From positions 2,018,965-2,082,964 of the forward strand of contig OX638295.1 in assembly GCA_951812345.1 (NCBI GenBank): 64,000 nucleotides of DNA. The letters run 5' to 3'. The DNA comes from Rhodothermales bacterium (lineage in GTDB: Bacteria > Bacteroidota > Rhodothermia > Rhodothermales > VXPQ01). Positions 1,363 to 24,434 of this stretch are shown here, piece by piece. Within the stretch, counting starts at the first letter, position 1. Each line of letters starts with the position of its first letter. The notes under the pieces are model-generated. The model saw only the letters and a list, made by a program, of their open reading frames with translations. It was not told the origin of the DNA and did no database searches. A program made the translations under genes and the position numbers.

Positions 1363-1399
1363 GGATACCCTCACGGTGTATGCCGTTTGCCCTGCATCG

Positions 1400-5299: not shown

Positions 5300-5306
5300 A
5301 GTCAGC

Positions 5307-8678: not shown

Positions 8679-9842
8679 ATGGTAAGCTCAGCAGAAAATC
8701 ACTCGGGCGAGGGAAACAAACTCCTGTTCACACCGGGTCCGCTGACCACCAGCCGGGCCATCAAAGAAGCCATGCTGCGCGATTTCGGTTCGCGCGACAC
8801 GGCCTTTATCGAAACCGTGCGTCGCATCCGGCGCCAACTACTCAAGATCGCCGGCGTTTCGCAAGAGGACGGCTACGAAGCAATCCTGATGCAGGGAAGC
8901 GGGACATTTGGTCTCGAGTCTGTCGTGTCTTCGACCGTGCCCGGAGCAGGACGAATTCTTGTCGTCGTTAATGGGGCCTACGGCGAGCGCATTGTCAAGA
9001 TGACGCGCATCCTCAATATCGATGCCCGGGTGCTGCGTTACGAAGAAAATATGCCCGCGGACATCGAGGAGATTCGGCGGGTGCTTGCCGAGGATGCAGC
9101 GGTCACCAACGTCTGCGTCGTACACTGTGAGACAACCACCGGGCTTTTGAATCCTGTTGAAGAGATTGGAGCCGCTGTACGCGAGAGGGGTTGTTTCTAC
9201 ATCGTGGACGCCATGAGTAGTCTGGGGGCGATCCCGCTTAATCTCGAAACCGCCTGCATTGACTTTCTGGTCACCTCATCCAATAAGTGCCTTGAAGGGG
9301 TACCCGGTTTCTCCATCGTGCTGGCCCGGCGCGATGCGCTGCTCGCCACGGAGGGAGCCGCCCGCACGTTAAGTCTCGACTTGCAGGCGCAGTGGCGCGG
9401 CCTTGAAGCCAACGGCCAGTTTCGCTTTACTCCTCCCACACACACGATCCTGGCCCTGGAGCAGGCTCTGCAGGAATTGGAAGCGGAGGGGGGCATCGCG
9501 GCTCGTGCGGCGCGCTACCAAACCAACCACGCCATACTAATGGAGGGTATGCAACGGTTGGGATTCCACACGTATCTCTCCCCCGATCGCCAGAGTTATA
9601 TCATTACCTCTTTCTATTATCCTGACGATCCGAACTTCTCATTCGAAACGTTTTACGATCGCTTAAACAGGAAGGGCTTTGTCATCTATCCCGGCAAACT
9701 CACCCGGGCCGACTGCTTCCGTATCGGTAACATCGGCCAGATATTCCCTGAAGATGTAACCCGTTTGCTTGCCGCCATTGAGTATACGCTTAAGGAAATG
9801 GGAGTACAGCTGAAAGCAACGGTGACAGAATCTGCGGCCTGA
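8679..9842 (+). CDS. phnW: 2-aminoethylphosphonate:pyruvate transaminase
   Basis: 387 residues, typical for PhnW. It transfers the amino group of 2-aminoethylphosphonate to pyruvate, giving phosphonoacetaldehyde and alanine in the cytosol with PLP. The N-terminus shows the family signature LLFTPGPLTTSRAIKEAML (residues 15-33). HCETTTGLLNP (149-159) and VDAMSSLGA (176-184) surround the cofactor pocket, and the PLP lysine is K203 in SSNKCLEGVPG. It is the first gene of the plus-strand phosphonate locus. Its product is the substrate of PhnY further downstream, which completes the PhnW-PhnY-PhnA route. No PhnX (phosphonatase) is present. The ATG at 8679 lacks a strong Shine-Dalgarno sequence, but the conserved N-terminus starts soon after it. 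Assignment is firm. Confidence 0.93.
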   Translation: MVSSAENHSGEGNKLLFTPGPLTTSRAIKEAMLRDFGSRDTAFIETVRRIRRQLLKIAGVSQEDGYEAILMQGSGTFGLESVVSSTVPGAGRILVVVNGAYGERIVKMTRILNIDARVLRYEENMPADIEEIRRVLAEDAAVTNVCVVHCETTTGLLNPVEEIGAAVRERGCFYIVDAMSSLGAIPLNLETACIDFLVTSSNKCLEGVPGFSIVLARRDALLATEGAARTLSLDLQAQWRGLEANGQFRFTPPTHTILALEQALQELEAEGGIAARAARYQTNHAILMEGMQRLGFHTYLSPDRQSYIITSFYYPDDPNFSFETFYDRLNRKGFVIYPGKLTRADCFRIGNIGQIFPEDVTRLLAAIEYTLKEMGVQLKATVTESAA

Positions 9843-9912
9843 CGTCGGCAAAGCAACTGCCTGGCCTAAACGGAGGATGGCGCTGCGCATATTAACCTAA
9901 CCGCCTTGTACT

Positions 9913-11769
9913 ATGGTACTGCTTCGTAAGACGTATGCGCTCTATCTACTTACTGTGTGCGCCCTGGTCGCCCCGGTACACGCCCAGGAGGCCGGATTGG
10001 TTGGACACTGGATATTCGACAGCGAACACATGGACGGTCACGTCGTCCGGGATAACGCTGGAGCACACGACATCGCGCTTGAAGGGCCCGTACGGCTCGT
10101 CGAGAACGAGGTAACGGAAGTACTCGAACTCGACGGGATCAGTAATGCGCTTCTGATTACAGACGACATCTCGACAGCCGGACTACCGTCAAAGGAAATT
10201 ACGGTGGAGGCCTGGGTGCGTTACGTCAATCCATTCAGTTGGGGAGGTTTCATCGGGGCCTTCCAGGACAGCGGGTCGTACGAGATGGGTTGGGTGCTCG
10301 GTTACCGGGGCAGCCGCGTCACTTTTGCGCTGGCCAGCACAGGTGCTGATCAAGACGGCGATGGCGTTATGACCTATATGGACGCTCCCACACCTGTCGA
10401 ACTAGGTGGCTGGTACCATGTGGCGGGTACGTACGATGGCTCCGTAATGCAGATCTATGTGAACGGCCAACTGGAAAATACGACGACGGAGCAGTCAGGA
10501 GACATCCTCTATCCACCGAACGCCTTTTATGAAATCGGGGCCTACCGCGACGACGACGAATACTACCGCCTGAAGGGAAGCCTCAAGGAGGTGCGGCTCT
10601 ACGATCGCGTCTTGTCAGCCGACGAGATCGCCAATCGCTTCAAAGCATACCAGCCCCTTGCCGCCCTGGAGGTTCGCAAGGAAAAGCCCCAAATCGCAGT
10701 CGGTCCCTATCTGCAATATGCCACGCAGCATAGCATCACCGTGCTCTGGGAAACAAACCGGGAGGCCACCACGCGAATCGAATATGGCCTGGAAGTTCCG
10801 TTGACTGAACAGTTCGCGATCGACGGGCAACGGCGCCTGCATGAGGTAGTGCTCAACGAGCTAACACCGCAAACAAACTATTTCTATCGGGTGGTCTCAG
10901 TCACGGAGGACGGGGTCGAACTGGCCAGCGATATTTCTACCTTCCAGACAGCCGTGGAAGACGAGACGGCCTTCGCTTTTGCCGTCATTGGCGACACGCA
11001 GAACAACCCGCCGGTGTGGAAGCGGATTGCGGAAGGCATCTGGCGGGAACGGCCCAACTTCGTCGTACTTTGCGGCGACATCGTGGGAACGGGCAGCAAC
11101 ACCTACGAATGGGTTCACGAGTTCTTTGCCCCTGCAGCGCCTTTGATGAAGCGCATGCCAATCTACACGGTGCTGGGCAATCACGAGGGCGACGCCGATA
11201 ACTACTACAAATACATGGCGAATCCGGAGCCGGAGTATTTTTACACCTTCACATACGGCAACGCGCAGTTCTTCATGATCGACAGCAACCGGGACCTCAC
11301 GCCCGGAAGTCCGCAATTCACCTGGCTCGAGAACGCACTGGCCCAATCCACGGCGACATGGAAGTTCGCCGTACACCATCACCCGCCGTACACCTCCGAC
11401 GAGAACGATTATGGCGACACCTACCAGGGACCGGCGCTTGAAGGCGATCCCAGGGTGCAGCCGGCAATTTCGCTATACGAGCAATATGGGGTGGATATCG
11501 TTTTTTTCGGGCACATCCATGATTACGAGCGCACCTGGCCGATCAAAGAAGGTAAAGTCAACCAGGAAGAAGGCGTTCGATACATCCAGACCGGCGGCGC
11601 GGGAGGCTCGCTCGAAAACTTTGCTCCTACCCGCTCCTGGTTCACGGCCAGGGTACGCCGCGATCACCACTTTGGGCTGGTGCTTGTTCACGAGGGCATA
11701 TTGCAATTCAACGCTATCGACCTGGACGGGCGCCTCTTCGATCAGTTCGATATCCGTAAAACAGAATGA
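9913..11769 (+). CDS. Exported LamG/purple-acid-phosphatase-type metallophosphoesterase
   Basis: 618 residues: signal peptide (1-24, VHA before QE), a LamG/concanavalin-like domain (about 28-245), a fibronectin-like purple acid phosphatase N-domain (about 266-355), and a calcineurin-like metallophosphoesterase domain (about 362-610). Metal-binding motifs are intact: GDTQ with D371, GDIV with D399, GNHE with N433/H434, HHHPP at 498-502, and GHIHDYE with H544/H546. The family hydrolyses phosphate mono- or diesters with a bimetal centre. The LamG domain suggests binding to a glycan or surface. It is 70 bp after phnW, and its stop overlaps the next start by 4 bp (ATGA). The context suggests release of phosphate or phosphonate head groups outside the cytosol; the substrate is inferred, not shown. 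Confidence 0.85.
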   Translation: MVLLRKTYALYLLTVCALVAPVHAQEAGLVGHWIFDSEHMDGHVVRDNAGAHDIALEGPVRLVENEVTEVLELDGISNALLITDDISTAGLPSKEITVEAWVRYVNPFSWGGFIGAFQDSGSYEMGWVLGYRGSRVTFALASTGADQDGDGVMTYMDAPTPVELGGWYHVAGTYDGSVMQIYVNGQLENTTTEQSGDILYPPNAFYEIGAYRDDDEYYRLKGSLKEVRLYDRVLSADEIANRFKAYQPLAALEVRKEKPQIAVGPYLQYATQHSITVLWETNREATTRIEYGLEVPLTEQFAIDGQRRLHEVVLNELTPQTNYFYRVVSVTEDGVELASDISTFQTAVEDETAFAFAVIGDTQNNPPVWKRIAEGIWRERPNFVVLCGDIVGTGSNTYEWVHEFFAPAAPLMKRMPIYTVLGNHEGDADNYYKYMANPEPEYFYTFTYGNAQFFMIDSNRDLTPGSPQFTWLENALAQSTATWKFAVHHHPPYTSDENDYGDTYQGPALEGDPRVQPAISLYEQYGVDIVFFGHIHDYERTWPIKEGKVNQEEGVRYIQTGGAGGSLENFAPTRSWFTARVRRDHHFGLVLVHEGILQFNAIDLDGRLFDQFDIRKTE

Positions 11770-12776
11770 AAACGCCTCAAGCCACGAACATGTCGGGCGC
11801 CTGCAATCGAAGGCGGTTTTTACAGGTGGTGGGCAGCGGCCTTATAACGGGCCTGGCCGGCCACGCGACAGGAGCGCCTTTTTACGATTTCTGGCGTGAC
11901 GGAGCCAACCCGCCGCTGCGGTTTGGTATGATTGCCGACGTGCATCATGGACTCATGCCGAAGGCCGAAGAGCGGCTGGAAGCTTTTTTGGAAGAGGCGA
12001 ACCGGCGCGACCTGGACTTTCTCATTCAACTGGGCGATTTCTGCCACCCGCATCCCGACGCTCATGCCTTCGTCAAGCTCTGGGAGCAAGCGGATGCGCC
12101 GCGCTACCATGTGCTTGGCAACCACGACATGGACCTGGGCGCCAAACGGGAGATCATGGACCTCTGGCAGATGGAGCACAACGTTTACTCCTTTGATGCA
12201 GGCGCCTACCATTTCGTAGTGCTCGACTGCAATTTTTTGCACGTCGACGGTGCGTATGTGGACTACGAGCACGGCAATTTCTACGTGGACGATACACTCC
12301 GCACCTTCATTCACCCCGAGCAACTTGAGTGGCTCGAAGACGAACTGGCTTCAACCGATCGGCAGACTATCGTATTTACGCACCAGGCATTGGATGAGAT
12401 CTGGAATGGAGGACTGGCCAAGAATCGCGAGGCGGTCCGCCGGATCTTCGCCGAAGCGAACAAACAGGCCGGTTTCCAAAAGGTAATTGCGTGTTTCTCC
12501 GGTCATCATCATCTGGACGAGCACAGCACGATCGACGGCACCCATTATGTGCAGGTTAATAGTGCCTCGTACTACTGGGTCGGCGAAGGGTATGGTCGGA
12601 TGGCTGCATACCGGGACCCGTTGTTCGCCTTTGTCACGGTGGGCGCAGAAGGCATCGTCATTGAAGGGCGGCGCAGCGTTTTTGTAGTTCCAACCCCGGC
12701 CGACCTCGAGTTTCCCGAGGCGCACCGGCTTTCCGCCAGCCTCTCCGACCGGATGCTGGTCTTTGCGCAGCCGTGA
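11766..12776 (+). CDS. Tat-exported calcineurin-like metallophosphoesterase
   Basis: 336 residues. The N-terminus holds a twin-arginine signal (NRRRFLQVVGSG, residues 14-25), so the folded, metal-loaded enzyme is probably exported by Tat. The metallophosphoesterase motifs are all present: DVHHG (D58/H60), GDFCH (D91), GNHD (N119/H120), THQ (H206) and SGHHH (H247/H249). The domain resembles Icc/CpdA-type and phosphatidate-like phosphodiesterases of the same fold. It overlaps the preceding phosphatase gene by 4 bp, implying translational coupling, and lies in the phosphonate locus. The substrate is unknown; a phosphodiester or phosphonoester that the neighbouring enzymes also act upon is a reasonable guess. 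Confidence 0.85.
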   Translation: MKTPQATNMSGACNRRRFLQVVGSGLITGLAGHATGAPFYDFWRDGANPPLRFGMIADVHHGLMPKAEERLEAFLEEANRRDLDFLIQLGDFCHPHPDAHAFVKLWEQADAPRYHVLGNHDMDLGAKREIMDLWQMEHNVYSFDAGAYHFVVLDCNFLHVDGAYVDYEHGNFYVDDTLRTFIHPEQLEWLEDELASTDRQTIVFTHQALDEIWNGGLAKNREAVRRIFAEANKQAGFQKVIACFSGHHHLDEHSTIDGTHYVQVNSASYYWVGEGYGRMAAYRDPLFAFVTVGAEGIVIEGRRSVFVVPTPADLEFPEAHRLSASLSDRMLVFAQP

Positions 12777-12815
12777 ACGATATCAGGCCGCGTTCTCTAA
12801 AACTCATAACACAGC

Positions 12816-15326
12816 ATGAACATGAAACGCATCATCCCTCTCAGGAAGCATGGATGTCTTTATGGCCTCAGCGCCATTCTCGTACTCTTCATGGCATCGT
12901 GCAGCGATGCGCCACAGCAAATGGGCAAGGATGCTCCGCGAGTCGTAGTGATCGGGGTGGACGGGATGAGCCCTGACGGTATCCGCAATGCCGATACCCC
13001 GCATCTGGACACCTTAATGGCAGGCGGCGCATACAGCTTCAAGGCCCGCGCCGTGCTGACCACATCCAGCAGCCAGAACTGGTCATCCATGATTATGGGC
13101 GCAGGACCGGTACAGCACGGTATCACGTCCAATGCCTGGCAACCCGACCACTTCAGTATAGAACCCACGGCGGCCGGCTCGGGGCCCATCTTCCCTGCGG
13201 TGTTTGACCTGATGCACCAGCAAAGACCCTCGGCAGTGAGTGCTTCGATTTATGACTGGAGCGGCTTCGGACGCCTGTATAACCAGGGCGCCGTCACAAT
13301 TGACATAGACGCGGACGGCCCCCAGGCAACCACCGATGCAGCGGTACGCGTCTTCCGTAATGAGAACCCTGTTTTCACGTTTATTCACCTCGACCATGTG
13401 GATGGCGCCGGTCATACGTACGGGCATGGCACCGACCAGTACTATGCCTCGGTAGAAGAAGCCGATCGGTATATCGGCGAAATCGTTGCGGGGCTGGAAG
13501 CAGCGGAAGTGCGCGAAAACACGACCATCATAATCACAGCCGACCACGGCGGCAAAGACAAAGGCCATGGTGGGGAATCCATGGGCGAAGTGGAGATCCC
13601 CTGGATCATCAACGGCCCGGGCGTTGCGGCCGGCAAAGAAATCAGTGAACCCATCAATACCTACGATACGGCTGCGACGGCAGCGTATGTCCTGGGCCTG
13701 GTTCCGCCTTATGCCTGGATAGCCCGTCCCGTCTATGATGCTTTCGAAGAGCCGGAGCGGCCGGAGCCGATCGAACCTGGCCTGGAAGGCGTCAAGCATG
13801 TCGTGGTAATCGGAGTCGATGCGCTGAGCCCGGACGGTATCCAGAAAGCCCACACCCCGGCCCTCAACCACATAATTCAAAACGGTGCGTACAGCTTGGC
13901 TGCCCGCGCCGTCCTGACTACATCCAGCAGCCAGAACTGGGCGTCGATGATCATGGGAGCCGGGCCGGAACAACACGGAATCACTTCCAACGATTGGGAG
14001 CGGAATAACTTCTCCATCGAGCCCACGGCGAAGGGTCCGGAAGACCTCTTTCCGAGTATTTTTTCCGAACTCCGGGCTGCCGAGCCAGACGCCTATATCG
14101 CTTCCATCTACGATTGGGGCGGCTTCGGGAGGCTGTTTCCCCAAAGCGTGGTCGATGTAAGCATCGACGCCGAGAGTCCGCAGGATGCTGTGGACAAGGC
14201 CCGCGAACAATTTATGGCGCACCAGCCCCGGCTCACATTTATTCATCTCGACCACGTAGATCATGCCGGCCATACGTACGGGCATGGATCGGATGAATTC
14301 TATGCCTCGGTCGAAGAAGCGGACCGGCTTATCGGCGAGGTCTTGGCCGGTCTGGAAGAAACTGGCATGGCAACGCAGACACTGGTGATCATCTCATCCG
14401 ATCATGGAGGAAAGGGTAAGGGCCACGGAGGCGAATCGATGGCCGAGCTTGAAATTCCATGGCTTGCATATGGCCCCGGCGTCGTGGCAGGCAAGCACCT
14501 CACGATTCCGATCAACACGTACGATACCGCTGCGACAGTATTGTTAGCCCTGGGTGTGTCACAGCCGTATGCTTGGATTGCACGTCCTGTGGCCTCTGCT
14601 TTCGAACGCTATCACGACGCTTCCGAGCCTCTGGGAATGTATATTCCGGCTCCTCGAATTGTCCCACTGGGTGGTCTTGCGCTTCTTAATGAGTCCCCTG
14701 TAATTACGATGACAGTAGTGGATGATCCCGAGGCCGAAATACGATACACACTCGACGGCAGCGATCCGGATGAGACTTCTCCATTGTATGAGGGAGCCTT
14801 CCGGATCACCGGTAATGTCCAGGTAAACGCCAGAACCTTTAAGGGAACGGCGACAAGCAGCATCTCGCAAACGAGTTATCGGATACTGCCTCCCGGACAG
14901 GAAAAAAGGGTGTCGTACGCCTACTACGAAGGACAATGGGAGCTCCTCCCCGACTTTGACCAGCTCCAGCCCGTACATACGGGCAAGGTCTATGAGTTTC
15001 ACCTGGACGGCGTCGAGAATCGGCGGGAGGATTACTATGCCGTGAAGTTTGAGGGCGTCATCCGGATTGAACAAGCAGGGACCTATACGTTCTATACCCG
15101 ATCCGATGACGGAACCAAACTCTATGTGGATGGAATCGAGGTGGTGAACAATGATGGTTCCCATGGGGCGTTGGAGGAAAGCGGCGACATTGTCCTTGAG
15201 CCTGGAAGACACATGATCGAGGTAGAGTATTTCGAGCATTACGGGGGAGAACACCTCGAGGTGATGTACCATGGGCCGGGGGTTGAAAGAACCCTGCTCT
15301 CCTACATGGTATTTCAATCGGAGTGA
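12816..15326 (+). CDS. Lipoprotein with two tandem alkaline-phosphatase-superfamily phosphodiesterase domains plus PA14
   Basis: 836 residues. A lipoprotein signal (LFMASC, Cys29) is followed by two clearly duplicated type I phosphodiesterase/nucleotide pyrophosphatase domains (about 41-310 and 326-598). Each has a metal Asp (D49, D335), a TTSSSQNW nucleophile segment (82-89, 368-375), an FIHLDHVDxAGHTYGHG segment, and DHGGKxKGHGGES (243-255, 529-541), so both look active. A chitobiase-C-like segment (about 635-690, YTLDGSDP) and a PA14-type domain (about 697-835, TRSDDGTKLYVDG) follow, suggesting carbohydrate binding. PhnA belongs to the same superfamily, so ancestral relatedness within the locus is possible. 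The stop overlaps an upstream in-frame GTG of the next gene. Probable role: an outer-surface phosphodiester or phosphonoester hydrolase. The double-domain architecture is unusual. Confidence 0.87.
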   Translation: MNMKRIIPLRKHGCLYGLSAILVLFMASCSDAPQQMGKDAPRVVVIGVDGMSPDGIRNADTPHLDTLMAGGAYSFKARAVLTTSSSQNWSSMIMGAGPVQHGITSNAWQPDHFSIEPTAAGSGPIFPAVFDLMHQQRPSAVSASIYDWSGFGRLYNQGAVTIDIDADGPQATTDAAVRVFRNENPVFTFIHLDHVDGAGHTYGHGTDQYYASVEEADRYIGEIVAGLEAAEVRENTTIIITADHGGKDKGHGGESMGEVEIPWIINGPGVAAGKEISEPINTYDTAATAAYVLGLVPPYAWIARPVYDAFEEPERPEPIEPGLEGVKHVVVIGVDALSPDGIQKAHTPALNHIIQNGAYSLAARAVLTTSSSQNWASMIMGAGPEQHGITSNDWERNNFSIEPTAKGPEDLFPSIFSELRAAEPDAYIASIYDWGGFGRLFPQSVVDVSIDAESPQDAVDKAREQFMAHQPRLTFIHLDHVDHAGHTYGHGSDEFYASVEEADRLIGEVLAGLEETGMATQTLVIISSDHGGKGKGHGGESMAELEIPWLAYGPGVVAGKHLTIPINTYDTAATVLLALGVSQPYAWIARPVASAFERYHDASEPLGMYIPAPRIVPLGGLALLNESPVITMTVVDDPEAEIRYTLDGSDPDETSPLYEGAFRITGNVQVNARTFKGTATSSISQTSYRILPPGQEKRVSYAYYEGQWELLPDFDQLQPVHTGKVYEFHLDGVENRREDYYAVKFEGVIRIEQAGTYTFYTRSDDGTKLYVDGIEVVNNDGSHGALEESGDIVLEPGRHMIEVEYFEHYGGEHLEVMYHGPGVERTLLSYMVFQSE

Positions 15327-15355
15327 GGATTTCCGCAAGCCAGCCTCAGAGGATA

Positions 15356-16741
15356 ATGAAGCAGCATCGCGCCAACCAGGATCCGGACCACCTTGACTCT
15401 GAGGGCGATCTGAACATCTCGCCGCGCCGGGCTGCCTGGGTCGCTGACCACATTGACGAGGAGACGAAAGCTCTACTGGACGAAGACGCCTGGTACTTTC
15501 TGCACCAGTCGCTCTCTACACCCTGCCTCAATGTGCTGCGCGCGTGTGACGGGGTCTACATTGAAGACTATCAGGGCCGGCGTATCATGGATTTCCACGG
15601 CAACTGGGTGCATCAGGTCGGCTTCCGGAATCCACGTGTAATTGCAGCCATTACAGAACAACTACACACCCTTCCGTTCTGCACACGGCGGTATACGAAC
15701 GTACCCGCTATTAAACTCGCCAAAAAGCTGGCCGAACTGGCGCCCGGCATGCTAAACAAGGTGCTCTTTGCCCCCGGCGGAGCGCTTGCGATGGGCATGG
15801 CCCTGAAGTTGGCCCGCGTCGCGACAGGGCGCTTCAAAACCATCTCCATGTGGGATGCTTTTCATGGCGCGTCGCTCGACACAATCTCCATTGGCGGAGA
15901 AGCCGTTTTTCGTCGCGGCATTGGCCCGCTATTGCCAGGAACCGAACATGTGCCGCCACCCAATCCAAGTGCTTGCCCCTTTGGCTGCGAACGTAGGTGC
16001 AGCCTGAAATGCGCCGAATATATCGACTACGTCCTTGAGAAAGAAGGCGATGTCGCGGCGGTGGTCGCCGAAACAGTGCGCAGCACTCCCTATATCCCTC
16101 CTGTCGAATACTGGCAGATCGTGCGAAAAGCCTGCGATCGTCACGGCGCCCTGCTGATCCTGGATGAGATTCCGCACGCCCTCGGTCGCACCGGGACCAT
16201 GTTCACCTGCGAGCACTACGGCATCGAGCCGGATATCCTTGTCCTCGGCAAGGGGCTCGGCGGCGGCATCTTCCCACTTGCCGCCATGCTTGCCCGCGAA
16301 AATCTCGACGTGGCGAAAGATGGCGCGCTCGGACACTACACGCACGAGAAAAACCCTGTAGCCTGCGCCGCTGCGCTGGCCGCCATTCATTTCCTCGAAG
16401 AAGAAAATATCCTCGCCCGCACACGCACCCTCGGTGCATGGGCGCTTGATCGGATGCGCATGATGATGGAACGCCACCGCCTTATCGGAGATGTGCGAGG
16501 TCTGGGGCTAATGCTCGGCATGGAACTCGTGAAGGATCGGGCTACGATGGAACGCGCATCCCAGGCCGCCGAGGAAGTCATGTACCGGGCGTTATCTCGC
16601 GGGCTCAGTTTCAAGCTGACCATGGGCAATATCATTGTGCTGGCGCCGGCGCTCACCATTACCCAAGAGGAAATGGCCAAGGCGTTGGACATTCTGGACA
16701 TCTGCATTACAGAGGTGGAAGCCGGGGGAACTGCCGATTAA
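15356..16741 (+). CDS. pbfA: (R)-1-hydroxy-2-aminoethylphosphonate ammonia-lyase (PbfA-like)
   Basis: 461 residues from the ATG at 15356, which has AGAGG just upstream; a GTG at 15323 overlaps the previous stop but is less attractive. The fold is class III aminotransferase: D270 in LDEIPHALGRTG and PLP lysine K299 in LGKGLGGG. Family-like features are HGNWVHQVGF, FCTRRYTN and a large insert with four evenly spaced cysteines (C207, C211, C215, C219). In phosphonate loci containing PhnW, PhnY and PhnA this family is known as PbfA, which converts (R)-1-hydroxy-AEP to phosphonoacetaldehyde and ammonia, feeding the same pathway. The assignment rests on sequence pattern and context. An AEP or other omega-aminotransferase remains possible. 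Confidence 0.82.
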   Translation: MKQHRANQDPDHLDSEGDLNISPRRAAWVADHIDEETKALLDEDAWYFLHQSLSTPCLNVLRACDGVYIEDYQGRRIMDFHGNWVHQVGFRNPRVIAAITEQLHTLPFCTRRYTNVPAIKLAKKLAELAPGMLNKVLFAPGGALAMGMALKLARVATGRFKTISMWDAFHGASLDTISIGGEAVFRRGIGPLLPGTEHVPPPNPSACPFGCERRCSLKCAEYIDYVLEKEGDVAAVVAETVRSTPYIPPVEYWQIVRKACDRHGALLILDEIPHALGRTGTMFTCEHYGIEPDILVLGKGLGGGIFPLAAMLARENLDVAKDGALGHYTHEKNPVACAAALAAIHFLEEENILARTRTLGAWALDRMRMMMERHRLIGDVRGLGLMLGMELVKDRATMERASQAAEEVMYRALSRGLSFKLTMGNIIVLAPALTITQEEMAKALDILDICITEVEAGGTAD

Positions 16742-16895
16742 CCATAGCCTGGCAAACAAATCAGAGGTTTCATTTAATTTCGAAATGGTGTATGATAGAT
16801 GTGTATTGTGCAACTTTATATTTCGATTTACGATCATTGCCCCTTGCTGTTGCCAACCGAGTAGTTAAGCGAGCGTAACCACTATAAAAACCGCG

Positions 16896-18188
16896 ATGCC
16901 CAGCAAGCATGCAAACGACCGTCCCATTTCCACCGTCCCTTTCACAGTCAACGGGCGGACCTACCGCCCCCCGGATCACCCTGTGGCGGTCATCTGTATC
17001 GACGGATGCGCCGATGAATATCTAAGCACCTCGCTGGCGCACGAGCGCATGGGCAACCTCCAGCGGATGCTGGCTTCCGGAGGATATCGCGGGCTGGTCC
17101 GGGGCGCTCTCCCCTCCTTTACCAACGTCAACAATGCGTCCATTGCAACGGGGCTTCCGCCATCGGTGCACGGAATAAGCGGGAATTTTTTTCTTGATCC
17201 GGAGACGGGCGAAGAAGTCATGATGAACTCGGCTACCTATCTTCGCGCCGAGACGATACTTGCTGCGGCAGCCCAGGCCGGCCGAAAGGTGGCCATGGTG
17301 ACCGCCAAGGAAAAACTCCGGGATATGCTCGCCCACAACCTCGACGGCATTGCCTTCTCCGCCGAGAAAGCGAACCAGGCCACAGAAGAAACACACGGCA
17401 TCTCGGATGTCGAAGAACTGGTAGGGGCGCCCACGCCGCAGATTTACAGCGCCGATGCAAGCTTGTTCGTACTCAAAGCCGGCGTGGCGCTCATGGAAAA
17501 CGGGCTTGCCGACTTCCTTTACCTGTCGTTGACCGACTATATGCAGCACAAGTATGCGCCAGACACACCAGAATCCCTGGATTTTCATGAAAACCTTGAT
17601 CGTGAACTGGGGCGTTTGCTTGCATGCGGCGCTGTCGTCGGAGCCACGGCGGATCACGGCATGAATGCGAAGCAGACGCTCGACGGCAAACCCAACGCAA
17701 TCTATATGGAGAGCCTGCTAACCAAAAAATTCGGGGGAAACATCCGTGTCATTCTGCCCATCACCGACCCATATGTATTACATCACGGGGCCCTTGGGGC
17801 CTTTGCAGTGGTCCATGTGCCCGACCCGATAATAATCGACGCTGTGCTTGGTTACGTGCGCGAGATCGACGGCATTACAGAAGTGTACGACCGGGTAACC
17901 GCCGCAAAAAAGCTTCAATTGCCGCAAGACCGTATCGGTGACCTTGTGGTGCTGTCCGGGCGTGATGTGGTGATCGGGCGCACGCCAGCGCATCACGATC
18001 TAAGTCTCGTTCAAGACGGGTTGCGCTCCCATGGAGGACGTTACGAGGAAATGGTGCCCCTGCTTCTCTCCGAGCCGCTCAATGAGCTCTATGCTCGTTA
18101 TGCAGCCGCCGATCCGCGTAATTTCGATGTCTTCGACTTCACGGTGAACGGGACCCTTGCGTCAACACACACTATCGAACCTGGATAA
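16896..18188 (+). CDS. phnA: Phosphonoacetate hydrolase
   Basis: 430 residues. This zinc enzyme of the alkaline phosphatase superfamily splits phosphonoacetate into acetate and phosphate in the cytosol, the C-P bond-breaking step of the locus. The expected residues are visible: D36 (CIDG), nucleophile T76 (PSFTNVNN), D214 and H218 (TDYMQHKYAP), D253/H254 (ADHGM) and H379 (RSHGG). No signal peptide. A 154-bp AT-rich gap precedes it (TTTCATTTAATTTCG, then TTTATATTTCG), the largest internal gap in the locus, so a second promoter may lie there, although I could not fix its hexamers. phnY follows after 52 bp. Assignment is firm. Confidence 0.94.
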   Translation: MPSKHANDRPISTVPFTVNGRTYRPPDHPVAVICIDGCADEYLSTSLAHERMGNLQRMLASGGYRGLVRGALPSFTNVNNASIATGLPPSVHGISGNFFLDPETGEEVMMNSATYLRAETILAAAAQAGRKVAMVTAKEKLRDMLAHNLDGIAFSAEKANQATEETHGISDVEELVGAPTPQIYSADASLFVLKAGVALMENGLADFLYLSLTDYMQHKYAPDTPESLDFHENLDRELGRLLACGAVVGATADHGMNAKQTLDGKPNAIYMESLLTKKFGGNIRVILPITDPYVLHHGALGAFAVVHVPDPIIIDAVLGYVREIDGITEVYDRVTAAKKLQLPQDRIGDLVVLSGRDVVIGRTPAHHDLSLVQDGLRSHGGRYEEMVPLLLSEPLNELYARYAAADPRNFDVFDFTVNGTLASTHTIEPG

Positions 18189-18240
18189 CAGGTAATCCAG
18201 CCCCCTAAGCGCCTTTCATCTATAATATGACCCCGAAATT

Positions 18241-19698
18241 ATGGAAACGTCTATCGCCATTTCCAAAAACGACCATGTCGGCACACATGATCTTCCCTGT
18301 TACATCGCGGGACGTAAAGTCATCACAGATGAACGGTTAACGGTTTACAATCCCTATACCGGCGATGTCGCCGGAACGGTAAGCAGTGTCTGTCGCAGCC
18401 AAACGCACGAAGCCATCGAAGCCACGCTCAAAGGAGGAGAATTGCTGACGCGCTATCGGCGCTACGAGATCCTGAACAAGGCGCGCTCGCTTTTGCTGGA
18501 GCAGGCGGAATCGTTTGCCCACTTGATTACAGCAGAGTCGGGGCTGTGCCTGCGTGAAACCCGGTACGAGGTCGGGAGGGCCTGCGACGTGCTTCAGTTT
18601 GCCGCAATGGAGGCACTGAGAGATGACGGGGAGATATTTTCCTGCGACATTACACCCACCGGGAAGGCCCGGAAAATCTTTACGTTGCGTGACCCACACC
18701 GCCTGGTAGTCGCCATTACCCCATTCAATCACCCCCTCAACCAGGTGATGCACAAAATCGCTCCGGCCATTGCCGTCGGAGCACCGGTGGTGCTCAAGCC
18801 TTCCGAAAAGACGCCGCTTACGGCTGTCCGGTGTGTCGAGTTAATGTATGAAGCAGGGCTGCCCGAATGGATGCTGAGCGTTATCGTCGGACCAATGGAC
18901 GAGGTAGCTGAGGAACTGGTCGTTGACCCTCGAACCGAAGTAGTGAGCTTTACCGGTAGTGTCGAAATCGGTAAGAAAATTGCTCAAAGAGCCGGTTACA
19001 AAAAGCTGATCCTGGAACTGGGTGGAAATGCCCCGTTGATCGTACTGGAAGATGCCGACATGGATCTGGCTGTGCATCTGGCCACGGAAGGATGTTATCG
19101 CAACTCAGGCCAGCGCTGCACCGCCGTAAAACGTTTGCTCATCCACGAAGACATCCTGGATACGTTTACCGGGCGCTTCGTACAAGCCTCGAAAGCCTAT
19201 ACCTATGGCGACCCAATGGACTTCGATACGCGTGTCGGGACGGTCATCGACGAGGCAGCGGCTATCCGGCTTGAGACAGTGGTGCAGAAAGCCGTCGATG
19301 ATGGAGCCCGGGTGTTGCTCGGCGGTGAACGCCGCGGCGCCCTCCTGGCGCCGACCGTAATCGCCGACACGCCGCGTGATGCAGAGATGGTTGTGTGTGA
19401 ATCCTTTGGTCCTCTGGCGCCCATTATGGCAATCAAGAACCTCGACGACGCCATCGAACTGGCCAACAGCACGGACTACGGCCTCTCTTCCGGTATAGTC
19501 ACTAAAGACTTCAACAAAGCGCTTAAGGCAGTAAAGAAGATACGCACGGGCACTGTGAACATTAATGAGGTACCGGGCTACCGCATCGAGTTGTCTCCCT
19601 TCGGCGGCGTAAAAGATTCCGGTTTAGGAATCAAAGAGGGCGTCCTTGAAACCATGAAAGGATTAACCGCAGTAAAAACGTTTTCCCTGCCCTGGTAG
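18241..19698 (+). CDS. phnY: Phosphonoacetaldehyde dehydrogenase
   Basis: 485 residues, aldehyde dehydrogenase superfamily. It oxidises phosphonoacetaldehyde to phosphonoacetate with NAD(P)+, linking the PhnW, PbfA and oxidase products to PhnA. Visible motifs are PFNHPLN (161-167, catalytic-site Asn163), KPSEK (186-190), FTGS (237-240), general base E259 in LELGGNAP, and nucleophile C293 in SGQRCTAVKR. The C-terminal PFGGVKDSGLG motif is present. Position between phnA and a phosphatase in a phosphonate locus distinguishes it from generic succinate-semialdehyde or glyceraldehyde-3-phosphate dehydrogenases. The next gene starts 4 bp after its stop. Confidence 0.92.
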   Translation: METSIAISKNDHVGTHDLPCYIAGRKVITDERLTVYNPYTGDVAGTVSSVCRSQTHEAIEATLKGGELLTRYRRYEILNKARSLLLEQAESFAHLITAESGLCLRETRYEVGRACDVLQFAAMEALRDDGEIFSCDITPTGKARKIFTLRDPHRLVVAITPFNHPLNQVMHKIAPAIAVGAPVVLKPSEKTPLTAVRCVELMYEAGLPEWMLSVIVGPMDEVAEELVVDPRTEVVSFTGSVEIGKKIAQRAGYKKLILELGGNAPLIVLEDADMDLAVHLATEGCYRNSGQRCTAVKRLLIHEDILDTFTGRFVQASKAYTYGDPMDFDTRVGTVIDEAAAIRLETVVQKAVDDGARVLLGGERRGALLAPTVIADTPRDAEMVVCESFGPLAPIMAIKNLDDAIELANSTDYGLSSGIVTKDFNKALKAVKKIRTGTVNINEVPGYRIELSPFGGVKDSGLGIKEGVLETMKGLTAVKTFSLPW

Positions 19699-19702
19699 CC
19701 AT

Positions 19703-21847
19703 ATGTCGAAGGGATTCGATACCCACAGACAAACCGGAATGCCGATTATGCGCAGGCTTCCAACGGACCGGATAACATGGATTGTCGCAGGCTTGTTGTG
19801 CTCCCTGGCTACGCTCGCCCATGCGCAACCACTACCCTTTTACGACAACTTCGATGACGGTAACTATGCTGGTTGGACAGTTACTGACGATGTGGAACCA
19901 CAGCACGGACCTGGTGTGTGGGTGGTCGAGAACGGCGTGTTGGTTCAGAAATCCAACATCTGGTCCTATGGACCTGTGGACCTGGAAACAAAATATCATC
20001 TGGGCACACACATTACCACCGGTGACAGAAACTGGACCGATTATTCGCTCAATGCGCTGGTTCGATCCGCAGATAATGACGGGGTCGGTCTGATCTTTCG
20101 CTACCAGGATGCAAAAAATTATTACCGTGTCCTATTGATGAACGACCCGTCCTGGTCAGGCCGGGACTCCTCGGGAACGCCTGTTAACACCCCATTGCAA
20201 CGCATCCAGAAATTCATCGATGGAGAGCCATATATCCTGGCTGAAAATCTGGTCTCCCGGGCCTATCCCTCCGGCTTCTTTGCCTTGACGGCAGACGTGC
20301 GGGACGATAGCATCCATGCGTACCTCAATGGAAACCTGATCCTGAGCGCCAGGGATCAGCAGTACAAGACAGGCAGCATCGGGCTGTTGTCTTACGCCAA
20401 CACCGGGGCGTATTACGATAGTGTGTCCGTTACGAGTGAGCAGTTTATATACACGAAACCAGAAGAGGTAGCTGTTTTTTATCCGGTTCGCGAATTCAGG
20501 GCTCCGTATATCCAGAATCCAACCCGGACCTCTGTCGAAGTTGCCTGGCGCACGGTCGAGAAACAGGTTGGAAAGGTGAAGTACGGGCAGAAAAAAGGGG
20601 TCTTAAGCGAGGAAGCGGTGGAATCGGAAGCCCGGCAAAAACACCACATCACGCTCGACGGCCTGGAAGAAAGCACCCGGTATTTCTACGAGGTACACAA
20701 CGAAAATCAACGTGTGGCGGGCGAAGAGAATTTTCGCACGGCCCGAGGTCATGACGAAATGCTGTTTTCCTTTCTGGTTCTCGGCGATAGCGGCGTGGAC
20801 ACCCCCACCCAGTGGAGGGTGGCCCAACAGATGCAGCGCAGCATGAATAAGCGCGAGATTGATTTTATTGTCCACGTGGGAGATGTGCATCAGGGAAGCG
20901 GGGACTACTACGACAATATCTATTTTAAACCCTACGCCAGCCTGCTCAAGAACGTCAACGTGTTCACCTCACTTGGCAACCACGACGTAATTACGGACGA
21001 CGGCGGGGTATACCTTGACGATTTTTACCTGCCTCATAACAACCCGGACAGCACCGAGCGCTATTATTCTTTCCGCTGGGGTAGCGCCTATTTCATCGCC
21101 CTGGATACCAACGGCGATTACAGTCCCGGTTCACCCCAGCATGCCTTTTTGATCAATGCATTGACCGATAGCCTCCGAACCTCGGCCACCTGGACGTTCG
21201 TCTATGCTCATCACCCGCCCTACACTGAGTACTGGACCGATTATTATGGCGACAAAAGGGTTCAGGATCATCTGGTGCCCATTTATGAGCAATACGACGT
21301 AGACATGGTGATGAATGGCCATACGCACAGTTACGAGCGTGGAGAAAAGGAGCATGTGCATTACCTGGTTTCCGGCGGCGGAGGCGGCGGCCTGGACGAT
21401 TTTTTCGTCGATTACGACCACATCACCTTCTCCGATATGGTCCATCATTTTACGCGGATCGATGTGGATAACGATGAATTGCACGTCACAGCCACTGATC
21501 AGTACGGCAATGTGGTAGATCGATTCACAGTAAATAAATTTGTACAGGTATCCATCCAGGATAATGAGCTACCCCAGGCGCTGGATTTTGTCGATCTGGA
21601 GCCCGGTTACCCGAATCCCGCCACCGATACGACCGCTTTCGTGTATCGTATCGCGCAAGAGACACGGGTGAAACTCGAACTGTTCGACCTGACCGGGCGC
21701 AAGTTGTCTACCCTGGTCGATCAGTTTCATCCCGTTGGAACATACAAGGTCGTGCTCGACACCGCCCGCCTGGCGAACGGAACGTATGTGGTAAACCTGA
21801 CCGCCGGAAGCCTTACACGGAGCCAACAACTGGCGGTTATCAAGTAA
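19703..21847 (+). CDS. Exported purple-acid-phosphatase-like metallophosphoesterase with T9SS C-terminal domain
   Basis: 714 residues: a signal peptide (hydrophobic core about 27-40, ending AHAQ), a LamG/DUF1080-like beta-sandwich (about 45-250), a purple acid phosphatase fibronectin-like domain (about 270-345), and a metallophosphoesterase domain (about 350-610). The latter keeps VLGDSG, HVGDVH, LGNHD, HHPPY and NGHTHSYER. The last 80 residues begin PGYPNPATDTT and carry LELFDLTGRKL, GTYKV and NGTYVV, ending QLAVIK, a typical T9SS type A sorting domain. The protein is probably displayed on the cell surface. The exact start is uncertain: ATGs also occur at 19739 and 19748 and would give a more normal signal peptide. 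It parallels the phosphatase at 9913-11769 in layout. Confidence 0.85.
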   Translation: MSKGFDTHRQTGMPIMRRLPTDRITWIVAGLLCSLATLAHAQPLPFYDNFDDGNYAGWTVTDDVEPQHGPGVWVVENGVLVQKSNIWSYGPVDLETKYHLGTHITTGDRNWTDYSLNALVRSADNDGVGLIFRYQDAKNYYRVLLMNDPSWSGRDSSGTPVNTPLQRIQKFIDGEPYILAENLVSRAYPSGFFALTADVRDDSIHAYLNGNLILSARDQQYKTGSIGLLSYANTGAYYDSVSVTSEQFIYTKPEEVAVFYPVREFRAPYIQNPTRTSVEVAWRTVEKQVGKVKYGQKKGVLSEEAVESEARQKHHITLDGLEESTRYFYEVHNENQRVAGEENFRTARGHDEMLFSFLVLGDSGVDTPTQWRVAQQMQRSMNKREIDFIVHVGDVHQGSGDYYDNIYFKPYASLLKNVNVFTSLGNHDVITDDGGVYLDDFYLPHNNPDSTERYYSFRWGSAYFIALDTNGDYSPGSPQHAFLINALTDSLRTSATWTFVYAHHPPYTEYWTDYYGDKRVQDHLVPIYEQYDVDMVMNGHTHSYERGEKEHVHYLVSGGGGGGLDDFFVDYDHITFSDMVHHFTRIDVDNDELHVTATDQYGNVVDRFTVNKFVQVSIQDNELPQALDFVDLEPGYPNPATDTTAFVYRIAQETRVKLELFDLTGRKLSTLVDQFHPVGTYKVVLDTARLANGTYVVNLTAGSLTRSQQLAVIK

Positions 21848-21854
21848 TGCAGTA

Positions 21855-23063
21855 GTGTGCATGCCAACCGCCATGTCAAGCGATACCAAACACGTGCCCC
21901 ATGCGCTAAAAGCAGATATTGCCGTGATCGGCGCGGGTATCGCCGGGATCGCCCATGCCCTCGAAGCGGCCCGGCGAGGGCTATCGGTCGTCCTCTTTGA
22001 GCGCAATACTCACGCACTCGGCGCCTCGATTCGCAACTTCGGTATCGTCCTTCCACTCGGGATGTCGCCTGGAACAATCCACGAGCGGGCCTTGCGTAGT
22101 CGAGCGGTCTGGCTGGAGATCGCAGAACAGGCGGGCATTTGGCACAAGTCGACAGGCGCCCTCGTCGCAGCCTACCACGAGGATGAGCATGCCGTCCTGA
22201 ACGAATTTATCGAAGAAGCCCCCAGGCTCGGCTACAGGTGCGCATGGCTTGATCCCGAAGAGGTGGTTCGCCGGAGTCCGGCCCTCCGAACCAACGGACT
22301 GCAAGGTGGGCTCTGGAGTCCGGAAGAGGTGATCGTTGACCCGCGCGAAGCCATAACAAAACTTCCCGGGTACCTTCGCCATACGTACAATGTTGAATTG
22401 CGCTTCGGTAAGACCGTCACGGGCATTACCATGCCCTACATTGAAGCAGGCGGCGAAACCTGGTGCGTCGAGCGGGCTATCGTATGCAGCGGGACTGACT
22501 TCGAAACGCTGTACCCGGCTGCTTTCGCCGCCAGCGGACTGACACGCTGCAAGCTGCAGATGATGCGCACGGTCCCGCAGCCCGGCAGGTGGCGCCTCGG
22601 CCCGATACTGGCCACCGGCCTCAGCCTGCGTCACTATCCGGCATTCTCGTTGTGCCCGTCGCTGCCCGCTTTGAAACGCCGCATTACTCAGAACCATCCG
22701 GCTTTCGAACAATGGGGGATACATATCCTGGTTGCGCAAAACGGTGCGGGAGAACTCCTCCTGGGGGATTCTCACGAGTATGGTTGGACGCCGGATCCGT
22801 TCGACCGTCCAGAGATCGACGCGCTCATCCTGACATATCTGGAGACCATTTTGGCGCCGCCTTCACTAACGATTCTCCAGCGCTGGCACGGCGTATACGC
22901 CAAGCACCCTGCACATGATGTCTTCCTTGCAGAGCCAGAGCCGAATGTTCGTATCGTAAATGGCCTTGGCGGAACCGGCATGACCACAAGTTTCGGCCTG
23001 GCGCAAGATGTTTTTACCGATTGGGAGGGAACACGGAGCCTTGCCTTGCAGAAGCTTCCTTAG
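21855..23063 (+). CDS. FAD-dependent oxidoreductase of the phosphonate-cluster type (glycine-oxidase-like)
   Basis: About 402 residues (GTG at 21855, or ATGs at 21861 and 21873). A Rossmann GxGxxG motif (VIGAGIAGIAHA) near residue 25 and FERN about 20 residues later bind FAD; NGLGGTGMTTSFG near the end is the second FAD contact. The overall pattern matches the TIGR03364-type oxidoreductases that recur in phosphonate gene clusters. Relatives are reported to oxidise AEP or N-alkyl AEP to phosphonoacetaldehyde (from memory). Here that would give a third entry to PhnY. It follows the phosphatase gene by 7 bp. Other small amines or amino acids as substrate cannot be excluded. Confidence 0.8.
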   Translation: MCMPTAMSSDTKHVPHALKADIAVIGAGIAGIAHALEAARRGLSVVLFERNTHALGASIRNFGIVLPLGMSPGTIHERALRSRAVWLEIAEQAGIWHKSTGALVAAYHEDEHAVLNEFIEEAPRLGYRCAWLDPEEVVRRSPALRTNGLQGGLWSPEEVIVDPREAITKLPGYLRHTYNVELRFGKTVTGITMPYIEAGGETWCVERAIVCSGTDFETLYPAAFAASGLTRCKLQMMRTVPQPGRWRLGPILATGLSLRHYPAFSLCPSLPALKRRITQNHPAFEQWGIHILVAQNGAGELLLGDSHEYGWTPDPFDRPEIDALILTYLETILAPPSLTILQRWHGVYAKHPAHDVFLAEPEPNVRIVNGLGGTGMTTSFGLAQDVFTDWEGTRSLALQKLP

Positions 23064-23099
23064 TCCTTACCCGTCTCACAACCTGCCATCCCATTGCCA

Positions 23100-24404
23100 A
23101 TGAATCCGACCTTGATGCAAACGGACGCTGAACGTTCACTGGCTATCTTTCCTGCCGGATCGAACGGCGAGTTCAACCTCCCATCCGCTCTGTCCATGGT
23201 GATTGCGCGCGGTTCAGGCTGCGATCTTTGGGATACCGACGGAAAGCACTATGTGGACTTCTCGATGGGATGGGGCTCGGCGCTCGTCGGGCATGGGCGT
23301 CGCGAAATCGCCGAGGCCGTAGCGCAGCAGGCGCCGAAAGGAGCCAATTTCGCGTACATCACGGAGGCTTCACTCGCACTGGCTGAAGAAATTGTCCGGA
23401 TAAGCCCGGCCAGTGAAAGGCTACGCTTCTGTGCCTCCGGCACCGAGGCAACCATGTACAGTCTGCGTCTGGCGCGGGCTTTTACGGGACGTTCTCGCGT
23501 GATCAAGTTCGAGGGAGCCTACCATGGAGCGAATGATGTCGGCGTAACCAGTTTGTTTCCACAGCGCTTACCCGATTTTCCCACACCTGAGCCATCCTCT
23601 GACGGCATCGATCACCTTGTGCGCGATCATGTTCTGATTGCACCTTATAACGACCTGGAAACAACCCAACGGATCATCACCACTTATGCCGACGAGGTAG
23701 CAGCAGTGATTGTAGAACCGCTACATCGCTGTCTGCCTCCAGTATCGGGTTTCCTGCAAGGCTTGCGCGAGATTACAGCCGCCCACGGTGTGCTACTGAT
23801 TTTCGACGAGGTGGTAACCGGATTCCGTCTGGCTTACGGGGGCGCCCAGGAATACTATGGCGTCGTGCCAGACCTCGTGGCCTACGGAAAAGCACTCGGA
23901 GGCGGTTATCCAATTGGCGCCTATGGCGGACAATTTGAAATCATGGATCTGGTGCGCGAAGATCGCCTGGGAAGAGAAACCTACGTCTGGACGGCCTCTA
24001 CGCTGGGCGGCAACCCGGTTTCGACGGCGGCTGCAGGAGCAGCCTTGTCCGTATTTCGACAGCCCGGCGCCTATGAACATCTGCACGAGATCGGGGCCTA
24101 TCTGCGGGAGGGAATGAGACAGACACTCCAGGCACGAGGCATCCCCGGGCAGATAATCGGTGACGGCCCGTTGGCTCAGGTGGTCTTCACGCGTGAAGAG
24201 GAGCCGGTCCTGGACTACCGTTCCACCCGGCGCGGCGACGCAGAAACCAGCCGGGCCGTAATGCTCGGTCTTTTCGGCCGGGGCATTTTTCTCAATCCCA
24301 TGGGGACAAAACTCTATCTGTCACTGGCTCACGACAAGGCAGCCTGCGACACATTTCTCGACCGCTTCGACGACACACTCGCGAAAGTTTTTTCTACCGC
24401 CTGA
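23100..24404 (+). CDS. Class III aminotransferase-fold enzyme, glutamate-1-semialdehyde-aminomutase-like
   Basis: 434 residues from ATG 23100 (a TTG six bases earlier is less likely). PLP-binding features are clear: CASGTEATMYSLRLAR, YHGAND, D236 in LIFDEVVTGFR, and K264 in AYGKALGGG. It resembles glutamate-1-semialdehyde 2,1-aminomutase and related omega-transaminases, but nothing suggests tetrapyrrole synthesis nearby. It sits between the FAD oxidase and the transporter of the phosphonate locus. A transaminase or lyase for an unusual aminophosphonate is therefore the favoured idea; the substrate is unknown. It is not close in sequence to the PbfA-like protein of the same locus. Confidence 0.8.
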   Translation: MNPTLMQTDAERSLAIFPAGSNGEFNLPSALSMVIARGSGCDLWDTDGKHYVDFSMGWGSALVGHGRREIAEAVAQQAPKGANFAYITEASLALAEEIVRISPASERLRFCASGTEATMYSLRLARAFTGRSRVIKFEGAYHGANDVGVTSLFPQRLPDFPTPEPSSDGIDHLVRDHVLIAPYNDLETTQRIITTYADEVAAVIVEPLHRCLPPVSGFLQGLREITAAHGVLLIFDEVVTGFRLAYGGAQEYYGVVPDLVAYGKALGGGYPIGAYGGQFEIMDLVREDRLGRETYVWTASTLGGNPVSTAAAGAALSVFRQPGAYEHLHEIGAYLREGMRQTLQARGIPGQIIGDGPLAQVVFTREEEPVLDYRSTRRGDAETSRAVMLGLFGRGIFLNPMGTKLYLSLAHDKAACDTFLDRFDDTLAKVFSTA

Positions 24405-24434
24405 TCTTCCAACGATCATCACTCCAATCAAAGC

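Follow-up and report, generated by a model that had tools for sequence, protein, structure and literature searches.

A stretch of 64,000 nt from Rhodothermales bacterium (GCA_951812345.1, contig OX638295.1, positions 2,018,965–2,082,964, forward strand; hereafter the window) contained a locus in which genes for the cytosolic breakdown of aminoethylphosphonate (AEP) were combined with genes for exported phosphohydrolases and for an outer-membrane receptor. As judged from gene content and order in related genomes, the receptor and its partners, the exported phosphohydrolases, a permease and the cytosolic route formed one recurrent, co-inherited unit. With somewhat more confidence than doubt, we read it as a locus for phosphonate utilisation on the plan of a polysaccharide utilisation locus (PUL), with extracellular capture, exported ester cleavage and cytosolic breakdown. 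The chances are about even that the PA14-bearing NPP-type phosphodiesterase, including the double-domain form found here, is a dedicated exported phosphonate-ester hydrolase that frees AEP-type groups of surface glycans or lipids, and that it is the catalytic mark of a class of outer-membrane loci for phosphonate use that is widespread in Bacteroidota, Rhodothermota and Verrucomicrobiota. Below, L numbers denote loci or stretches, G numbers genomes and P numbers proteins that were compared.

Exported phosphohydrolases interleaved with phosphonate genes

Positions 8679–25721 (+ strand) were occupied by one tight operon of eleven genes, with intergenic gaps of -4 to +154 bp, in the following order.

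8679–9842, +: PhnW, 2-aminoethylphosphonate-pyruvate transaminase (TIGR02326, 474 bits, cutoff 400.8)
9913–11769, +: P0005, LamG phosphoesterase of purple-acid-phosphatase type (Laminin_G_3, Pur_ac_phosph_N, Metallophos)
11766–12776, +: P0006, calcineurin-type metallophosphoesterase exported by twin-arginine translocation (Tat), from domain search
12816–15326, +: P0007, double PF01663 phosphodiesterase lipoprotein of nucleotide pyrophosphatase/phosphodiesterase (NPP) type (Fn3_assoc/CHB_HEX_C_1 and PA14)
15323–16741, +: PbfA (NF049939, 697 bits, cutoff 525)
16896–18188, +: PhnA, phosphonoacetate hydrolase (TIGR02335, 514.5 bits, cutoff 407.55)
18241–19698, +: PhnY, phosphonoacetaldehyde dehydrogenase (TIGR03250, 634.0 bits, 1.65 below the cutoff of 635.65)
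19703–21847, +: P0011, phosphatase secreted by the type IX secretion system (T9SS) (3keto-disac_hyd, purple acid phosphatase, Por_Secre_tail/TIGR04183)
21855–23063, +: flavin adenine dinucleotide (FAD) oxidoreductase TIGR03364 (HpnW) (444 bits, cutoff 285)
23094–24404, +: HemL-like pyridoxal phosphate (PLP) enzyme (family-model match)
24435–25721, +: permease of organophosphate:phosphate antiporter type, GlpT/PgtP-like (TIGR00881, 247 bits, below cutoff)

The genes of the four exported phosphohydrolases were interleaved with phnW, pbfA, phnA and phnY, as an initial annotation of the window had claimed; all four lay in this single operon and kept intact catalytic motifs. The genes lay where that annotation had put them, except that phnW (8679–9842) was just to the left of its stated start at 9913. 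Its prediction of three or more export routes was borne out by four different signals, read by eye from the sequence: a Sec signal in P0005 (MVLLRKTYALYLLTVCALVAPVHA), a twin-arginine signal in P0006 (NRRRFLQVVGSG), a lipobox in P0007 (VLFMASC) and a Sec signal together with a C-terminal T9SS domain in P0011.

Calcineurin-type motifs were intact in all three metallo-enzymes (P0005, P0006 and P0011), and P0005 and P0011 were recognised as purple acid phosphatases by PF16656, PF00149 and the motifs GD, GNH[DE], HH and GH[IT]H. When solved structures were searched with the sequence of the Tat metallophosphoesterase, none matched. Its model was of low confidence (predicted local distance difference test, pLDDT, 64) and matched generic calcineurin-type enzymes (e.g. 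GpdQ and Rv0805), and its substrate was therefore not read from the model.

On the cytosolic side, PhnW and PhnA scored above their cutoffs and PhnY just under, giving a phnWAY-type cluster with the PbfA extension. Among 80 PhnA loci taken from a genome-wide scan, relatives of PhnY (60–77%) adjoined PhnA in most. The predicted cytosolic route was complete for AEP (PhnW, PhnY and PhnA) and for its 1-hydroxy form (PbfA). N-methyl-AEP is oxidised by FAD enzymes from such clusters (PMC10590968); the TIGR03364 oxidoreductase was probably an aminophosphonate (N-methyl-AEP) oxidase, through which the N-methyl form would probably be covered too. The GlpT/PgtP-like permease was a candidate for the inner-membrane uptake step; AepP of Pseudomonas putida (PMC8316502) is likewise GlpT-related, a likeness at the family level. 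Relatives of the HemL-like PLP enzyme recurred in phosphonate loci of Rhodothermales and Verrucomicrobiota (L093, 5081–6346, 74%; L027, 58%; L070, 52%).

Fold and active site of the phosphodiesterase

Both halves of the phosphodiesterase kept the metal ligands and the Ser nucleophile, which lay in an SSSQNW motif in each half. D12, S48, D159, H163, D206, H207 and H214 (P0015 numbering) were invariant in 13 sequences and aligned with the Xanthomonas NPP (Xac NPP), giving the two-metal ligand set and the Ser/Thr nucleophile of an NPP-type phosphodiesterase. The domain model (pLDDT 90.9) had the NPP fold, matching ENPP1 (Z 29.1, root-mean-square deviation (rmsd) 2.2 over 251 residues) and Xac NPP (2gsn; Z 28.7, rmsd 2.8 over 256 residues). 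The best matches among solved structures were NPP phosphodiesterases, including the alkaline sphingomyelinase ENPP7 (5tcd); other enzymes of the alkaline phosphatase superfamily ranked after them, with phosphonate monoester hydrolase lower down. Xac NPP and ENPP7 had the same ligand set as the window enzyme, which differed from them in its low identity (17–24%), in Ser for the Thr nucleophile (Thr in Xac NPP) and in a shorter core of 270 amino acids (aa), duplicated and accompanied by PA14 and Fn3_assoc.

The phosphonate monoester hydrolases (PEH/PMH) of Rhizobium and Burkholderia, which were proposed to free phosphonates from glycans (PMC5649143), shared the alkaline-phosphatase-superfamily fold (4uph, Z 25.6, rmsd 2.6 over 251 residues). 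Their nucleophile is a formylglycine, in contrast to the Ser of SSSQNW. Membership of the phosphodiesterase in the classical PMH/PEH group was rejected because its nucleophile was Ser and the formylglycine motif C-x-P/A-x-R was absent. The modelled NPP fold would suit a sugar- or lipid-borne phosphonate ester, since R-O-P(O)(O-)-C resembles a phosphodiester in which carbon replaces one ester oxygen. We infer that the enzyme cleaves phosphonate esters, freeing AEP-type groups.

In a tree of 57 phosphodiesterase domains, in which long branches were noted, the phosphonate label changed about 10 times and was clustered, not confined to a single clade. An exclusive link of the family to phosphonate loci was dropped, as some clades sat in GH92/GH20-type or sulfatase clusters. 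Copies distant from PhnA often adjoined other phosphonate-linked genes: a PhnZ-kind HD-domain protein (below the family cutoff) in L103 and L104; TIGR03364 and DUF5690 in L105; and an HpnZ-like dehydrogenase (below cutoff) in L109, L112 and probably L113, with a PhnX-like hydrolase above cutoff also in L112. In L103 (1639–3276) and L104 (8731–10368), the cluster of the single-domain phosphodiesterase and the PhnZ-like protein contained another PF01663 phosphodiesterase, which ended in a LamG domain. In Chitinophaga (L108, L110, L111 and L114), members of the phosphodiesterase family were clustered with a GH92 mannosidase and a protein of the endonuclease/exonuclease/phosphatase family, which hints at phosphorylated or phosphonylated glycans as substrates of this clade.

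Outer-membrane genes and left flank

By synteny, the locus extended beyond the span first noted, to divergent genes at 301–8216 and into the left flank of the window. The TonB receptor, a 1299-aa protein and a PorV-like barrel ran divergently from phnW.

5307–8216, -: TonB-dependent outer-membrane receptor (Pfam: carboxypeptidase-regulatory-like N-terminal domain, plug and barrel)
1400–5299, -: 1299-aa exported protein, no Pfam family (67–72% orthologues at the corresponding position in five further genomes)
301–1374, -: PorV/outer-membrane beta-barrel-like protein (weak Toluene_X/UPF0164)
1–352, - (gene to window position -3748): N-terminal end of a secreted protein of ~1340 aa with PPC and a T9SS tail (Pfam PPC, Por_Secre_tail)

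Orthologues of the PorV-like protein (65–72%) adjoined the TonB receptor in L084, L085, L095, L097 and L100. The PPC/T9SS protein was assembled as one open reading frame across the flank from the same genome (L098) and the window, and its gene order was identical in L084, L085, L097 and L100. Onward on the same strand, L098 contained the remainder of this gene, a SurA/PpiC-like lipoprotein and a second PA14 phosphodiesterase, followed by a divergent DeoR regulator. The second phosphodiesterase was single-domain, of 566 aa and 53% to the window enzyme; the unit of ~34 kb therefore comprised five exported phosphohydrolases.

The 1299-aa exported protein was a probable partner of the TonB receptor. 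These outer-membrane genes strengthen the idea of extracellular capture, and the PA14, Fn3_assoc and LamG domains, together with SusC/D partners, would fit a glycan-like substrate. The window and left-flank proteins that were searched included no glycoside hydrolases or lyases, which are a criterion of a PUL.

Co-inheritance within Rhodothermales

Of the 114 genomes examined from the order, five contained PhnA, and these were also the five that had the phosphodiesterase (Fisher p 7e-9). The TonB receptor, as a close orthologue (63–66%), and the T9SS phosphatase occurred together in the same seven genomes (p 2e-11), including all five with PhnA. Among the 109 genomes without PhnA, the phosphodiesterase was thus found in none, the T9SS phosphatase in two and the TonB receptor in two. 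One of these two, G012, contained the TonB unit, phosphatases including a LamG phosphatase, PhnW, PbfA and a PhnX-like hydrolase, with no match to PhnA, and the exported part therefore followed aminophosphonate use rather than one C-P enzyme. (Its pbfA, L096, 3811–5159, was split over two frames, probably by an assembly frameshift.) G034 had the TonB receptor and the T9SS phosphatase without a PhnA match; its contig ended in the TonB gene. PhnA, the phosphodiesterase, the TonB receptor and the T9SS phosphatase were absent from the five sister species of the genus, indicating that the unit was accessory.

The unit was syntenic in G040/G093 (L084, L004), G041/G038 (L085, L007) and G085 (L099–L100), the T9SS phosphatase thus recurring in phosphonate loci of other Rhodothermales. 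The outer part of these loci ran T9SS phosphatase, TonB receptor, 1300-aa protein, PorV, PPC/T9SS protein, SurA-like lipoprotein and DeoR, and was followed by PhnW, double phosphodiesterase, PbfA, PhnA, PhnY and TIGR03364, with the permease next in L007 and L100. The syntenic proteins were 45–77% identical to those of the window, and the permease less so (26–28%).

The same distribution bears on another explanation, that the locus is a phosphorus-starvation set for general organophosphate scavenging, which would draw phosphate from ordinary phosphate esters and diesters, with the phosphonate genes merely adding one more source of phosphorus under shared control. Purple acid phosphatases and calcineurin-type enzymes are well known to act commonly on phosphate esters. 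In marine high-molecular-weight material, phosphate esters exceed phosphonate esters several times (PMC5649143), and the low-phosphate-induced PusCD loci of Flavobacterium, the phosphate utilisation system (PUS) loci, are described in passages of PMC8115612 as holding phosphatases, phosphodiesterases and phosphonate-degrading enzymes. However, the phosphodiesterase, T9SS phosphatase and TonB receptor were nearly absent from relatives without PhnA (0, 2 and 2 of 109 genomes). Of the two exceptions, one had PhnW, PbfA and a PhnX-like hydrolase. The lack of the phosphodiesterase in 109/109 relatives without PhnA weakened the scavenging explanation. The neighbouring DeoR or XRE-cupin regulators also spoke against it, suggesting induction by substrate. 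We regard scavenging as rather unlikely. As to the regulators themselves, helix-turn-helix (XRE) and cupin proteins stood beside phosphodiesterase or phosphonate genes in many loci (L105, 2131–2700; L112, 6473–7090; L022, L120, L121 and L122), and Rhodothermales loci had DeoR in their place.

Recurrence across the phylum and beyond

In a phylum sample of 394 genomes, PhnA was found in 7, the phosphodiesterase in 14 and both in 6 (p 4e-9). PhnA was present, or the phosphodiesterase lay inside a PbfA locus, in 11 of the 14 genomes; the latter was the case for five of the eight without PhnA (L120–L123 and L125), several of these loci also carrying a PhnX-like hydrolase, a TIGR03364 enzyme, DUF5690 and an XRE-cupin regulator. 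The three without phosphonate genes at the phosphodiesterase were the lowest-scoring of the 14. L120 and L121 had the order SusC-SusD-phosphodiesterase, as in a PUL, in a cluster with PbfA, a PhnX-like hydrolase and TIGR03364.

Among the 80 PhnA loci, with vicinity taken as within ~10 kb, relatives of the phosphodiesterase occurred in L004, L007, L009, L022, L025, L026, L029, L031 and L046, and those of the Tat metallophosphoesterase in L022, L026, L029, L031, L039, L057 and L075. A full-length LamG phosphatase directly preceded TIGR03364-PhnA-PhnY in L062, L065 and L067 (Verrucomicrobiota), and in L087 it was flanked by PbfA and the TIGR03364 gene. Full-length relatives (42–47%) were present in phosphonate loci L062, L065, L067, L087 and L122. 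Where a PhnA genome had the gene at all, it lay within ~10 kb of PhnA in 9/19 genomes for the phosphodiesterase (expected 0.09), 7/24 for the Tat metallophosphoesterase (expected 0.10) and 3/5 for the full-length LamG phosphatase (expected 0.03), the expectations being taken from whole-genome counts, in which close homologues numbered about one per genome. Co-occurrence with phosphonate genes elsewhere, the test named in the initial annotation, was seen for all three enzymes in other Rhodothermales, Bacteroidota and Verrucomicrobiota, and the tie of these phosphoesterases to phosphonate loci is well supported.

Exported hydrolases abound in the genomes of Bacteroidota and their relatives, and the neighbourhood could in principle be due to chance, with no functional link to the phosphonate genes. 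Genes of the sulfatase/NPP fold and the calcineurin fold are common in these phyla, and 53/80 PhnA loci had no relative within the stretch examined. Close homologues, however, were rare (about one per genome) and lay within 10 kb of PhnA ~70 to 120 times above expectation, and the association recurred in Rhodothermales, Pedobacter, Chitinophaga, Sinomicrobium and Verrucomicrobiota. Chance is extremely improbable and was rejected as contradicted by the co-occurrence tests.

Proposed mechanism

A macromolecule or lipid carrying AEP-type groups as phosphonate esters would be bound and taken through the outer membrane, and the NPP-type domains would cut the ester to give free aminophosphonate. The purple acid phosphatases and the Tat metallophosphoesterase may trim phosphate esters or other linkages of the same substrate. 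The freed aminophosphonate would enter through the permease and be degraded to phosphate and acetate, first by PhnW, PbfA or the TIGR03364 oxidoreductase and next by PhnY and PhnA. Extracellular cleavage of this kind, put forward in the initial annotation, gained partial support from the link to phosphonate loci and from the receptor side of the unit, both read from sequence; the ester cleavage itself we infer.

Several points weigh against this reading. The normal substrates of NPP-type enzymes are phosphate diesters, and the fold does not reveal which substrate is used. Some phosphodiesterase clades sat in loci without phosphonate genes, both of GH92/GH20 type (L108, L110, L111 and L114) and others (L126–L128). 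Of the window and left-flank proteins that were searched, none belonged to a SusD family, so that a SusC/SusD pair was lacking there, and the 1299-aa protein, a possible stand-in for SusD, matched no Pfam family. Any relative of the exported enzymes lay within 10 kb in only 27/80 PhnA loci, several matches being weak; the idea of universal PhnA partners was dropped, some of the weak matches being sulfatase-like, and the association is therefore a variant that recurs without being required by PhnA pathways. Finally, the co-occurrence statistics assume independence among genomes, an assumption that does not hold. For this reason, recurrence across Rhodothermales, Sphingobacteriaceae, Chitinophagaceae, Flavobacteriaceae and Verrucomicrobiota is a better argument than the statistics.

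The exported enzymes might instead strip phosphate from a mixed phosphate/phosphonate glycan or lipid, which would open it to uptake or further digestion and leave the phosphonate ester to another enzyme. Three calcineurin-type enzymes stood alongside the phosphodiesterase in the window, and phosphate ester makes up ~70–80% of phosphorus in marine polysaccharides (PMC5649143); a further candidate for ester cleavage was not recognised in the conserved unit, and we consider such unmasking improbable.

Comparison with known systems

The initial annotation knew of no described locus with this combination. The PUS (PusCD) loci are partial prior art, sharing with the window locus an outer-membrane TonB-type receptor and exported phosphatases and phosphodiesterases. 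In its passages on these loci, PMC8115612 describes them as phosphate-starvation loci and gives the phosphonate link one sentence; the PbfA/PhnWAY unit, the PA14 phosphodiesterase and a phosphonate-ester hypothesis do not appear in those passages. Unlike PUS loci, the window had no recognisable SusD, and a SusC/SusD pair was present in the related L120 and L121. The phnWAY/phnWX clusters with pbfA and FAD oxidoreductases (PMC8154272, PMC10590968) correspond to the cytosolic half of the window locus; the words phosphodiesterase and phosphatase are absent from the main text of both papers, and a text search of the AEP transporter paper (PMC8316502) did not find phosphatase.

Phosphonate accounts for about one fifth of organic phosphorus in marine high-molecular-weight dissolved matter, where it is esterified to glycans, and alkaline-phosphatase-family enzymes have only been postulated to free it (PMC5649143, PMC8931226). 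The window locus and its relatives name specific candidate genes for ester cleavage, tied both to an outer-membrane receptor and to established C-P catabolism; the question of phosphonate-ester release thereby becomes testable with one protein family. If the reading is true, aminophosphonate turnover would be tied to importers of polymers or lipids, and not only to users of free AEP.

Other genes

Several SusC-like TonB receptors and FG-GAP/UnbV-ASPIC genes lay on the minus strand at 30485–63528 of the window and showed no apparent connection with the phosphonate operon. DUF5690 (PF18943), a predicted membrane protein, was encoded beside TIGR03364, PbfA or PhnA genes in Bacteroidota and Verrucomicrobiota (L062, 5592–6914; L105, 3850–5220; L121, 12274–13575; similar open reading frames in L022, L122 and L125), and is a candidate phosphonate transporter.

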